64,000 nucleotides of DNA from Gemmatimonadota bacterium (lineage in GTDB: Bacteria; Gemmatimonadota; Gemmatimonadetes; Longimicrobiales; Gaopeijiaceae), in NCBI GenBank assembly GCA_030428885.1, contig JAUIEJ010000002.1, positions 498,501 to 562,500 on the forward strand, in the 5' to 3' direction. The notes below the pieces were generated by a model. The model made no database searches, was not told where the DNA came from, and saw only the letters and a program-made list of their open reading frames with translations. The position numbers and the translations under genes were made by a program. Positions 51,034 through 55,708 of this stretch are shown here, one piece after another; position 1 is the first letter of the stretch, and every line of letters starts with the position of its first letter.

Positions 51034-51167
51034 GTCGAAGCACGGGCAGAGGGGAGCCAACGGAAACTCCGGGAAACGTGTGTGTAAGGAGGGGCCCCTC
51101 CATGGCGCGATACGCCACCCTCCCCGGGCTTCCCCCGCCCGACCGACCCGCACTCCGGCCTCAGCCG

Positions 51168-52457
51168 ATGTTTCCTAGATCGTTCGTCCTTCCCGTGATG
51201 GGTCTCCTCACGGGACTCGCCGCCTCGTTCCCCTCTCCCGCCTCCGCCCAGGATCCCGAACCGGGCATCCGTGCCGGCGCCCTGGGTGTCTTCCTGGACT
51301 GCAACACCCGGTCCTGCGATTCGAGGTATTTCCGCACCGAGATCACCTTCGTGAACTGGGCCCGGGACCGGACCCTGGCCGACGTCCACCTGATCCTCAC
51401 CTCGGTGCAGACGGGAGGCGGAGGACAGCAGTTCAATCTGGACTTCATCGGCCTGGGCGATCTGGAGGACACCGACGACGCCCTGACCTACACCTCCCTC
51501 TCCACCGACACCCAGGCCGAGATCGTGGAGGGGCTGACCCGGGTCATGGCCGCCGGCCTGGCGCGCTACGCGGCGCTGGCCGGACGGGCCGGTGACCTGG
51601 TGATCCGGGGCACCGAGGCGCCGCCGCCCCCGGTGGATCGCCTCGTCTCCCCCCAGGAGGTCGACGACCCGTGGAACTTCTGGGTCTTCGAGATCGGGGC
51701 GGGCTTCGACCTCGAGGGCGAGGAGACCGAAAGCGAGCGGAGCTTCGACGGCCGCATCGAGGCCCGGCGCACCACCGACCTCTGGAAGGTGGAGCTCTCG
51801 GGTCGGGGCTGGTTCAACCGTTCGGAGCGGGAGCTGTCGGACAGCACCACCATCGTGGACGAGCGCACGAACTGGAACACCAATCTCCTCGTCGTCTACA
51901 GCCTCGCCGAACACTGGTCGGTGGGCATGACGGCGGGCGCCGGCGCCTCTACGAGCCGCAATCAGGACCTGGGAGCCGACGTCTTCGCCGCCCTGGAGTA
52001 CAGCTTCACCCCCTACCCCGAGGCGCCCCGCCGCTCCATCTCGACCCGGTACCAGATCGGCGTCCAGTACTTCGACTGGGAAGAGGAGACCATCTTCCGC
52101 CAGACCTCCGAGACCCGGCCCCAGCACTCGGCCCGCTTCGACGTGTTCCAGCGCCAGCCGTGGGGGCAGAGCCGGGCGTCGATCCAGGCAAGCCAGTACC
52201 TCCACGATCTGGACCTGTGGAGCCTGCGCCTCAGCGGCAACCTCAATTTCCGGATTCTCCGGGGACTGTCCCTCGATCTCCGGGGCGAGGTGGATTGGAT
52301 CGAAGACCAGCTCTACATCTCCGGCGAGGGCCTCAGCGACATCGACATCCTCCTGGGCCGCTTCGACCGCCCCACGGACTACGCCTACGAGTTCTCCGTG
52401 GGCCTCAGCTTCGAGTTCGGGTCGATCTTCAACAACGTGGTGAACAACCGGTTCTAG
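51168..52457 (+). CDS. Outer-membrane beta-barrel-like protein of unknown function
   Basis: About 429 residues. Signal peptide FVLPVMGLLTGLAASFPSPASAQ. The first 150 residues after it contain two cysteines (CNTRSC) and a soluble domain; the rest shows alternating aromatic strands (WKVELSGRGWFNR, WSVGMTAGAGAST, YQIGVQYFDWEEE) and ends in NNRF, a C-terminal Phe typical of barrel insertion signals. It recalls DUF481-type barrels; function unknown. The ATG at 51168 is divergent from recQ with 134 bases between. Confidence 0.75.
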   Translation: MFPRSFVLPVMGLLTGLAASFPSPASAQDPEPGIRAGALGVFLDCNTRSCDSRYFRTEITFVNWARDRTLADVHLILTSVQTGGGGQQFNLDFIGLGDLEDTDDALTYTSLSTDTQAEIVEGLTRVMAAGLARYAALAGRAGDLVIRGTEAPPPPVDRLVSPQEVDDPWNFWVFEIGAGFDLEGEETESERSFDGRIEARRTTDLWKVELSGRGWFNRSERELSDSTTIVDERTNWNTNLLVVYSLAEHWSVGMTAGAGASTSRNQDLGADVFAALEYSFTPYPEAPRRSISTRYQIGVQYFDWEEETIFRQTSETRPQHSARFDVFQRQPWGQSRASIQASQYLHDLDLWSLRLSGNLNFRILRGLSLDLRGEVDWIEDQLYISGEGLSDIDILLGRFDRPTDYAYEFSVGLSFEFGSIFNNVVNNRF

Positions 52458-52757
52458 GGTGTCCTCGCCGGATCCCACCTCCCGCTGTCAGAAACGTGAC
52501 AATCGCCCCCGATCCCGGGGGCGATTGTCGCATATGTGACGGTTTCCGGGGCGATCCGCGACAATCGCCGTGACGCCGGCCACCGCGATTGTCTCCAAAC
52601 CGACGAATATCCGCCCGGTTTGCATCAACCGGCTCCGCTCCGGCCCCCGATTGTTGCGTTTCGGCCACCCGGCGCCGGAGCGAGGCGTCGACTCGCTCCA
52701 GGATGAAGCGCCCCCCAGAGGGACGCGTCTGTCTCATCCACTCCGAATCAGGACGTT
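52458..52757. repeat. Non-coding block with palindromic GACAATCG repeats (REP-like)
   Basis: No credible gene. The block contains a perfect 14-base inverted repeat GACAATCGCCCCCG-ATCC-CGGGGGCGATTGTC (52498-52529), and the core GACAATCG or its complement recurs near 52559, 52586 and, degenerate, 52648. Around the cores TGTCA-GAAACG-TGACA (52486-52501) and TGTCG-CATATG-TGACG (52527-52541) form spaced inverted sites. It separates two convergent genes. No U-run follows either strand, so it is not a normal terminator. Confidence 0.7.
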
Positions 52758-55406
52758 CTAGTCGTCCCTCAGGCAGAGAATCGGCTCCACCCGGGCCGCC
52801 CTCCCCGCCGGCAGGAGACAGGCCGCCGTGGCGGTGGCCAGGAGGACCGCCACCACGGCGGCCAGCACCCGGGGGTCGCTCACCCGGGTCTCGAAGAGCA
52901 GCGGCTCCAGCCACCGTCCCGCGGCCAGGGTCAGGCCCACCCCCAGGGCGATGCCCAGGCCGGCGGCCCCCAACCCCTGGGTGAGGATGAGTCGGCGGAT
53001 CCCGGCGCCCGACGCCCCCAGGGCGATCCGGACCCCCATCTCCCGTCGGCGGCGCTCCACCAGATACGAGAGCACGCCGTACACGCCCAGAATCGACACG
53101 AGGAGCGCCACCGTGGCCGCGAGCCCCAGCACCCAGGCGCCCATGCGCCAGGGCCTCACCTGGGGATCCAGCACCCGCTCCAGCACCGTGGCTTCGACGT
53201 AGGCCACCCGGGGATCCAGGTCGTCGAGTCGTCGACGGAGGTCTCCCGTCGCCGCGGCCCCATCGGTGGAGACCCGGACCACCAGCGCCATGCCCCCGAA
53301 CCGCCCCGCGGGGGTCAGGGGCACGTAGTACTGCATGGAGGGGGGCTCCCGGTACCCGGTGCGGTGCACGTCCTCGGCGATCCCCACCACCCGGGAGCAG
53401 GGGTCGTTCATGGAGCCCACGTGGAGACAGGCCCCCAACGCCTCGGCCGACGGCCACAGAGTGCGGGCCATGGCCTCGCTCACCACCACCACCGAAGCCC
53501 CGGCCTCCACCTCGTCGGGGGTGAAGTCCCGCCCCCGGACGAGGGCGGTGCCGGTGGCGTCGAAGTAGCCGGGACTCACGGCACTGAGCCAGGGGCCGCC
53601 CCCCGGGAGTTCGGGAATGGAATCCCGTCCGGGCACGGCCACCGAGAGTCCGAAGTTGTAGACGAAGGGCAGACCCAGGCTGACGGCCACTCCGTCCACC
53701 CCCGGCGCCCCTCGAAGGGCGTCCGCAGCGCGATCGTAGAGGGCGTGCTCCTCGGGCGACGGCGAGGGAATGGCCCCGGGCTCGGCCTCCCGCAGGGTGA
53801 GGGCGACCACCCGATGGGCGTCGACGCCCAGATCCGTCACCCGAATCGTGCGGAAGCTCTCCAGGAACAACCCGGCGCCCAGGAGGAGCGCCGCCGACAG
53901 GGTGATCTGGGCCGTGGCCAGGGCGAGCTGCAGACCCCCCCGGGCGCCGGCGGCCCCCCGCCCCCCCGAGCGCAGGGCACGGGCCAGATCGGTCCGGCCC
54001 GCCCGGGCCAGGGGCACGAGGCTCACCAGGACGGCGGTGGCGAGGGCGGCGCCGCCCGTGGCCGCCACCACGGTCCAGGGCAGAGGCGTCGTGGACCAGG
54101 CGACCCCGGGCAGGAGCACCTGCCGGAGCAAGGCCCCCGCGCCCCAGGCCACCGGAAGGGCGGCCACGCCGGCCGCCACCGACAGGACCAGGTTTTCGGT
54201 GAAGAGCACCCGGGCGAGCCGCCGCCGGCCGATGCCCAGAGCCAGGCGCACCGCCACCTCCCGGCGGCGGCGGGAGAGCCGGGCCAGAAGGAGGTTCACC
54301 ACGTTGGCCACGGCGATGAGGAGCACCAGCCCCGAGACCCCCAGGAGCAGGGCCGCCACCGCCACTTCCGGCGGCCGGCCGCCGTCGTCTCCCGCCCCCA
54401 CGGGCGCCAGGGTCACCGACCCGTCCAGCGCCCACTGGAAGAACCGACCCGGATCGGTGCGGCGGTGGGCCGCTTCGGCCGCGGCCACCACCCGCTCCCG
54501 GGCCGCCGGGTCGGCGTCGGCGAGGCGGGCCGCCACGTACCAGTTCCGGCTGTCGGTGGAGAGGGGATCCAGGAGCACCCACACGTCGACCCCGTCGAGG
54601 TGGGGCCCGGAGAAGCCCTCCGGCGCCACGCCCAGCACGGTATGGCCCGCACCGTCGAGATCGAGGCGCCGGCCCACGGCGTCGGCGGCCGACCCGAACC
54701 GGGCCCGGGCGAACGACGCCGACACCACGGCCCCGGATTCCGCCCCGTCGTCGGGCCCGAACCACCGTCCCCGGAGGGGCTGGGCACCCAGCAGGGGGAA
54801 GTAGCGGCGGTCGACCACGGCCAGACGGGCCGGGCGCACCTCGGTGCCGACGCCGGCAAGGCGTTCCTCGAAGCGGTACCGGGTCAGGTCGTCGAAGGCG
54901 CCGGTGCCCGCCACGGCCTCGGAGGTGGCCCACGGGATCCACGGACTCGAGCGGGCCGGCACTCCTTCACCGCCGGGGAAGTGGAGCAGCACCCGGACGA
55001 GTTCGTCCGGCGCCGTGACGTGGGCCGGCCCCCGGAGGAAGAGGCGATCCGCCACCCCGTACAGGGCGGCATTGGCACCGATGCCCAGGGCCAGCGTGAG
55101 GACCACGAACCCGGTGACCCGACCATCCCGCGCCAGCGACCGCACCGCCTGGCGAACGTCCAGCAGCCATCCCCCCATGCCCCACCTCCCCTCACCGTTC
55201 GTGGACGCGGCCGGCGCCCGTCGCCGTCGCCGCATGCGCAGCACGAATTCCACCGTGTCTCGTCGGAGCAGCCGACCCCACCACCACGTCCGTGCCCCGA
55301 CCTTCCCCGCCCCGCGCGCCTCGTCGTCCAGGGCCTCCAGGAATTCCCGGCTCCAGTCGTCGTCGGGGAGGAGTCTCTCCAGAAGGCGGCGGGGCCAGGG
55401 CCTCAT
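52758..55406 (-). CDS. ADOP-type ABC permease with N-terminal prefix domain
   Basis: About 882 residues. N-terminal prefix domain of about 70 residues (LLERLLPDDDWSREFLEALDDEA), then TM1 (VTGFVVLTLALGIGANAALYG), MacB-like core, FtsX domain (about 340-475), second core and a second FtsX domain ending before RVEPILCLRDD; VERRRREMGVRIALGASG marks it. Same family as the proteins at 23714 and 28019. It overlaps the PadR gene stop (ATGA). Its 3' end abuts the repeat block at 52458-52757. Confidence 0.9.
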   Translation of the reverse strand: MRPWPRRLLERLLPDDDWSREFLEALDDEARGAGKVGARTWWWGRLLRRDTVEFVLRMRRRRRAPAASTNGEGRWGMGGWLLDVRQAVRSLARDGRVTGFVVLTLALGIGANAALYGVADRLFLRGPAHVTAPDELVRVLLHFPGGEGVPARSSPWIPWATSEAVAGTGAFDDLTRYRFEERLAGVGTEVRPARLAVVDRRYFPLLGAQPLRGRWFGPDDGAESGAVVSASFARARFGSAADAVGRRLDLDGAGHTVLGVAPEGFSGPHLDGVDVWVLLDPLSTDSRNWYVAARLADADPAARERVVAAAEAAHRRTDPGRFFQWALDGSVTLAPVGAGDDGGRPPEVAVAALLLGVSGLVLLIAVANVVNLLLARLSRRRREVAVRLALGIGRRRLARVLFTENLVLSVAAGVAALPVAWGAGALLRQVLLPGVAWSTTPLPWTVVAATGGAALATAVLVSLVPLARAGRTDLARALRSGGRGAAGARGGLQLALATAQITLSAALLLGAGLFLESFRTIRVTDLGVDAHRVVALTLREAEPGAIPSPSPEEHALYDRAADALRGAPGVDGVAVSLGLPFVYNFGLSVAVPGRDSIPELPGGGPWLSAVSPGYFDATGTALVRGRDFTPDEVEAGASVVVVSEAMARTLWPSAEALGACLHVGSMNDPCSRVVGIAEDVHRTGYREPPSMQYYVPLTPAGRFGGMALVVRVSTDGAAATGDLRRRLDDLDPRVAYVEATVLERVLDPQVRPWRMGAWVLGLAATVALLVSILGVYGVLSYLVERRRREMGVRIALGASGAGIRRLILTQGLGAAGLGIALGVGLTLAAGRWLEPLLFETRVSDPRVLAAVVAVLLATATAACLLPAGRAARVEPILCLRDD

Positions 55407-55708
55407 GCGGGGCCGATGCCCTCCCACATGCGCTCGTTGGCCGACCGGGTGGCCCGGAGTTCGGCCCACCCGGCTTCGGTGAGTTCGAAGATGCGCACGG
55501 CCCGCCCGCCCCGATCCGGCGTCTCTCCGCGCCGGGAGCGCAGCAGGCCCCGGTCTTCCAGGCGGGTCAGGGTGACGAACGCCGTGCTCACGGCCACCTC
55601 CCGGCCCGCCACGTCGGCGAGCTCGGCCCGCACGTCGCGGGCCACGGCCCGGGGCCCGAGACGGGCCACGGCCAGGAGGGTCAGGTACTGGAGGTCACCG
55701 ACGGACAT
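55403..55708 (-). CDS. PadR-family transcriptional regulator (permease-linked)
   Basis: 101 residues. It starts with LQYLTLLAVARLGPRAVARDVRAEL and has the winged-helix part VSTAFVTLTRLEDRGLLRSRRGETP and RAVRIFELTEAGWAEL. Shorter than the other PadR in the window and without the long C-terminal helix. It is coupled to the permease by ATGA. An operator-like palindrome lies in its promoter, so autorepression is likely. Confidence 0.88.
   Translation of the reverse strand: MSVGDLQYLTLLAVARLGPRAVARDVRAELADVAGREVAVSTAFVTLTRLEDRGLLRSRRGETPDRGGRAVRIFELTEAGWAELRATRSANERMWEGIGPA

Follow-up and report, generated by a model that had tools for sequence, protein, structure and literature searches.

Layout of the spacer between two convergent genes

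The 64-kb window, by which we mean the entire stretch of DNA analysed, contains a pair of convergent genes separated by a repeat-rich block whose limits are the stop codon of one gene at 52457 and that of the opposing gene at 52758. The upstream gene (51078–52457, plus strand) encodes a protein of no known family, for which a profile search against Pfam and NCBIfam produced no match; its predicted C-terminus reads ...NNRF and then stop, as in several relatives, which is in line with its 3' end being intact. The downstream gene (52758–55469, minus strand) was classified as a permease of the ADOP/MacB-FtsX type on the basis of matches to PF12704, PF02687 and TIGR03434 (2.6e-177, under the curated cut-off of the latter model).

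The 298 bp between them (52458–52755; features cited without a strand were assigned none) are interpreted here as a very probable non-autonomous, MITE-like relic of the IS481 family, in view of a second copy and of IS481-like edges. Both edges are marked by TTCTAG, on the left at 52452–52457, where TAG closes the reading frame of the plus-strand gene, and on the right at 52756–52761, where CTA closes that of the minus-strand gene. These two target-site duplications, one per edge, are the only occurrences of TTCTAG in the 64-kb window, where CTAG itself is strongly avoided (3 observed versus ~53 expected from dinucleotides). Just inside the left repeat lies a terminal tip GGTGTCCT (52458–52465, plus strand, IS right-end side), and inside the right one an IS481-family left end (52698–52754, minus strand) with a hairpin at 52701–52739. 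The preliminary description, made from the sequence only, had overlooked both the TTCTAG edges and their similarity to IS ends.

Between the IS ends, the interior consists of three dyads of the form GACAAYCG-N16/18-CGATTGTC with a period of 62–64 bp. Unit 1 (52498–52529) is the perfect 14-bp inverted repeat GACAATCGCCCCCG-ATCC-CGGGGGCGATTGTC noticed earlier, and its palindrome is lengthened by the two outer TGTCR-N6-TGACR sites (52485–52541), which were likewise recovered as described, at 52485–52500 (TGTCAGAAACGTGACA) and 52526–52541 (TGTCGCATATGTGACG). Unit 2 (52560–52593, GACAATCG...CGATTGTC) follows 62 bp past unit 1, while unit 3 (52624–52655, ATCAACCG...CGATTGTT), delimited by alignment to the second copy, is degenerate in the window. 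The 64-kb window has no GACAATCG/CGATTGTC cores other than the four at 52498, 52522, 52560 and 52586, and the further cores of the preliminary description, including the degenerate CGATTGTT, were placed at 52560, 52586 and 52648. Overall, repeated or inverted 8-mer pairs number 29 in the block, whereas shuffled versions average 3.3, and either strand folds better than every shuffle (z = -5.4 and -4.8). No supported open reading frame of the element's own and no transposase gene were present within the 298 bp; neither a T-run terminator, in agreement with the earlier remark that a U-run was missing, nor a sigma-70-like promoter was found in the block.

Second copy, IS481-type ends and target site

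A count of copies in the genome, as the preliminary description had suggested, was performed on a 95% complete assembly (5.39 Mb, 23 contigs) and returned two, each between convergent genes, with no third. The second copy (G000:C8:583196-583483) lies on the opposite strand of the same contig, 32 kb from the window copy, in a 421-bp spacer between convergent trpA and an rqcH/NFACT-like gene; its neighbourhood differs from that of the window copy, and the flanking genes are unrelated. The two copies are 84–85% identical over ~285–314 bp, with 48 of 300 sites differing (16%). Dyad unit 3 is intact in copy 2 (GACAACCG...CGATTGTC, offsets 281/305), and relative to that copy the window element lacks ~95 bp beside the left tip. 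No full copy was detected among up to 57 related genomes. A search of 84,980 species genomes with the exact hairpin pattern gave 16 scattered matches, mostly in unrelated taxa (Clostridiales, Chromohalobacter and others), which we took as chance or terminators, local re-comparison having revealed little similarity beyond the hairpin.

Comparison with relatives revealed a junction free of the element. In a genome of the same genus (G004), rqcH and trpA are also convergent and their stops are just 23 bp apart, as opposed to 421 bp with copy 2, and the trpA/rqcH spacer of G002 is likewise short; these junctions represent the empty orthologous site of copy 2. For the window copy the empty site is unreadable, since the upstream gene's nearest orthologues, at 66% and 63% identity, sit among other neighbours. 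The corresponding trpA/rqcH spacer in G001:C1 (L115 3290-4270) measures ~980 bp and is occupied by tandem repeats rich in GGCGGG, along with a long duplicated unit that bears no relation to the window element.

The strong folding of both strands would suit a bidirectional terminator or a small structured RNA common to both convergent genes, the latter having been among the readings offered by the preliminary description, and so would one hairpin of the IS-end part, in which a single pair is compensatory. In all, hairpins on the IS-end side showed two compensatory pairs between the copies (from two sequences only). In the palindromes H1–H3, however, 7 of 46 pairs are broken between the copies and none is compensated; without compensatory changes the palindromes lend no support to an RNA, which is weak evidence with two sequences. 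Together with the missing T-run, a search of Rfam that gave no family at threshold (only miRNA-precursor matches to the hairpin, far under gathering scores) and the mere 23-bp spacer that suffices a same-genus relative at the trpA/rqcH junction, these changes make such a shared transcript feature unlikely.

The nature of the edges was revealed by a full IS481-family element in another genome of the same genus (G003), whose left end lies at G003:C68:942-1009. This element starts CTAG-GCTGTCCTGATTCGGAGT, finishes ACTCCGGAATAGGACAGC-CTAG and is flanked by GCCTAG on each side; its first open reading frame is an IS481-family transposase (NF033577, 8.6e-33). The whole transposase match to NF033577 reaches 210 bits and contains one stop, so this IS copy may be inactive. 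On the minus strand, the right edge of the window element is 86% identical to the G003 left end over 57 bp (E 5.5e-12 / 4e-13), and this edge of the window element is 76% identical over 66 bp to a remnant in G001. Both G003 ends are recognisable in copy 2, the left at 81% over 69 bp (E 3e-10) and the right at 76% over 66 bp (E 6e-7). The tips are GCTGTCCT at both G003 ends, TCTGTCCT in copy 2 and GGTGTCCT in the window, where the left edge retains a TGTCCT tip. Terminal inverted repeats are clear in copy 2; in the window copy the left one has been shortened to its tip of 8 bp, with a weak match to CGGA besides. The ~250-bp dyad filler has no counterpart in the G003 element.

An autonomous element with matching ends was not found in the 95% complete assembly of the own genome. 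An IS481-like gene there (C13:146090) was considered as the parent and rejected; with the G003 transposase it shares only ~31% identity, no DNA match to the ends was obtained, and it therefore belongs to a different subfamily. Counting this one (G000:C13:146090-146710), fragments of other IS481-family transposases were seen at three places in the own genome, the remaining two being C20:231830-232852 and C1:184417-184629. In G003, a lone IS481-type end, CTAGCCTGTCCCGATTCGGAGT, occurs without adjoining IS sequence (G003:C244:8315-8336, L066) and may be a solo end or another relic.

These ends bear on how the block came to be present twice. A segmental duplication could account for two copies 32 kb apart on one contig in opposite orientation, but the similarity between the copies does not go beyond the IS tips and CTAG, the flanking genes are unrelated and the edges correspond to the ends of an IS present elsewhere; we consider such an event very unlikely. 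Even less credible is a REP/BIME-type palindrome moved by a RAYT (Y1) transposase, a reading to which the location of the palindromes, outside coding sequence and next to the 3' end of a gene, would conform. REP/BIME sequences number tens to hundreds per genome, versus two here, and the unit of 300–420 bp, the DDE-type IS481 ends and the 6-bp target duplication all differ; two copies with IS481 ends mean that the block is no REP/BIME. Of the "mobile palindrome cluster" envisaged in the preliminary description, the mobility is therefore retained, in that this is a transposed element present twice, and the REP/BIME assignment is abandoned for a 298-bp unit with IS481 ends.

We conclude that the block is, with high probability, what is left of a miniature IS481-family element without a transposase, inserted at TTCTAG, with the CTAG presumably contributed by overlapping stop codons. 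Removal in silico of the insert and one repeat leaves the two genes overlapping by CTAG, and the convergent pair probably overlapped in this manner before insertion. A published parallel exists in the IS481-family transposon TnRErm46, which targets CTAG with a direct repeat NCTAGN and whose CTAG provides TAG stops to the target genes, which remain intact (PMC6794481). As GCCTAG occurs on both sides of the G003 element, the repeat in the present case is best written NNCTAG. The miniature-element reading draws further on the match of copy 2 to both G003 ends, on the left end and tip retained in the window copy, on the restriction of TTCTAG to the two edges in a window where CTAG is otherwise rare and on the element-free 23-bp spacer of G004. 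It is weakened by a copy number of two with 16% divergence, by the failure to find an autonomous element with the same ends in the 95% complete assembly, by the flanks of copy 2, which show CTAG on one side and CTGG in its place on the other, and by the altered neighbours of the upstream-gene orthologues, which obscure the empty site in the window.

Mechanistically, a transposase of the IS481 type, which would have acted in trans and is no longer found in the genome, would have moved a cassette made up of two IS481 ends around the ~250-bp filler with its three dyads spaced by 62–64 bp. The cassette would have entered and duplicated a TTCTAG target, whose CTAG is presumed to be where the TAG stops of the upstream and downstream genes overlapped, in an uninserted junction reading ...AACCGGTTCTAGTCGTCC.... 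Through duplication of CTAG, each gene would regain its stop codon, with the pair now 300 bp apart. The insertion would have been silent and without cost, for which reason the element would have persisted and then decayed. Such a course of events would explain the anomalous convergent spacer simply, the target CTAG doubling as a TAG stop overlap and neither gene being harmed, and from it one would expect gene 3' ends and convergent junctions to be preferred sites of IS481-type insertions and of their relics.

Dyad array and DUF559/AbiEi-like genes

A near-identical unit-1 hairpin was found directly after a DUF559/AbiEi-domain gene in G001 and G004, overlapping the TGA stop. The DUF559 clade with this motif has three members (two in G001 and one in G004, 60–67% identical), all of which carry 3–4 RACAAYCG/CGATTGKY sites within 250 bp (170 bp) of the stop, where chance would yield ~0.04–0.08 per 250 bp. 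Their array has a period of ~62 bp, close to that of the window element. At these loci the motif is absent inside the gene and elsewhere, except for a single G004 site lying 2.1 kb upstream, and none of the remaining DUF559 3' flanks examined contains it. The own genome has no DUF559 gene of the motif clade, its four DUF559 genes being 39–48% identical and devoid of the motif; the window has no DUF559 gene, and its array sits within the transposed cassette.

A similar periodicity emerged from DUF559 3' flanks in general. A lag of 60–62 bp was the commonest strong lag, being in the top 5% in 10 of 27 flanks versus 1.35 expected (binomial 9e-7, before correction for ~40 independent lags) and in 2 of 32 control flanks; with the GACAATCG clade left out, the count was 7 of 24 (2e-4, uncorrected). 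Rank tests of DUF559 flanks against controls gave P = 0.010 and 0.039, and a separate 8-mer repeat test agreed (14/27 versus 7/32, P = 0.017). Because this lag had first drawn attention in a subset of these very data, and because the sample includes several related genes and some flanks made of simple tandem repeats, we rate the 60–62-bp period as suggestive of a general trait of DUF559 3' flanks. At four loci, a repeated motif of its own follows the DUF559 stop with a period of ~60–62 bp (L145, G097:C11; L036, G001:C1:4077859; L038, G001:C1:2175926; L147, G019:C58), for instance TTGAAGA...TCTTC three to four times at L145 and GTGCCATATACGGGAC twice at L036. Past another DUF559 gene, near a contig end (L035, G000:C23:672-1565 and flank), a long GC-rich tandem repeat with GGGGGCGCCGGAGCGCCCCC was seen. 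DUF559 relatives were not found in viral contigs, and plasmids yielded one remote match.

Tentatively, then, the DUF559/AbiEi-like nuclease genes of this bacterial family might carry a cognate DNA array directly after their stop (about three dyads, 60–64-bp period, clade-specific), of which orphans would ride on IS481-type miniature elements. A related reading, in which the dyad array would be functional and bound by a DUF559/AbiEi-like nuclease as its cognate site, with the IS481 ends serving as a mere vehicle, appears possible but rather doubtful. It gains from the presence of the motif set in all three members of one clade and its absence from other DUF559 flanks, as well as from the matching ~62-bp period and the peak of DUF559 flanks at lag 60–62, and it loses from the lack of a DUF559 gene of that clade in the own genome and from the drift of the copies, with unit 3 decayed in the window and palindrome-breaking changes uncompensated. 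The "protein-binding array" of the preliminary description may accordingly hold for the interior, where dyads and period are those found after DUF559 genes. As for the source of the filler, one possibility is the internal deletion of a larger IS481-type transposon with a DUF559 gene as cargo. The motif array of one DUF559/AbiEi clade and the 60–62-bp period point to a possibly undescribed nuclease-associated repeat; our literature search found no paper pairing DUF559 with AbiEi, and papers that mention DUF559 along with palindromes dealt, judging from title and abstract, with other subjects.

Comparison with known systems

As a mobile element, the block is a low-copy case of a known type, and earlier IS481-derived MITEs may exist. 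With IS481 and ISRe46/TnRErm46 it shares the CTAG target, CTAG-containing direct repeats and terminal inverted repeats starting TGT, and with TnRErm46 also the insertion at TAG stop codons that leaves target genes intact (PMC6794481). Unlike members of the IS481 family, however, the window element has no transposase and measures 298 bp, and its repeat reads NNCTAG (TTCTAG, GCCTAG) in place of the perfect NCTAGN of TnRErm46. Bacterial MITEs are similarly short, transposase-less and intergenic, with IS-derived ends and a target duplication, whereas the present element is distinguished by having only two copies, a three-dyad filler and partly eroded ends. REP/BIME sequences with RAYT resemble it in being extragenic palindromes and differ in copy number, size, ends and target. 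The 3' flanks of DUF559/AbiEi genes of one clade have the GACAATCG dyads and the 60–64-bp period in common with the element; this shared array may be new, and a putative DUF559 nuclease together with its array would be loosely comparable to RAYT and REP.
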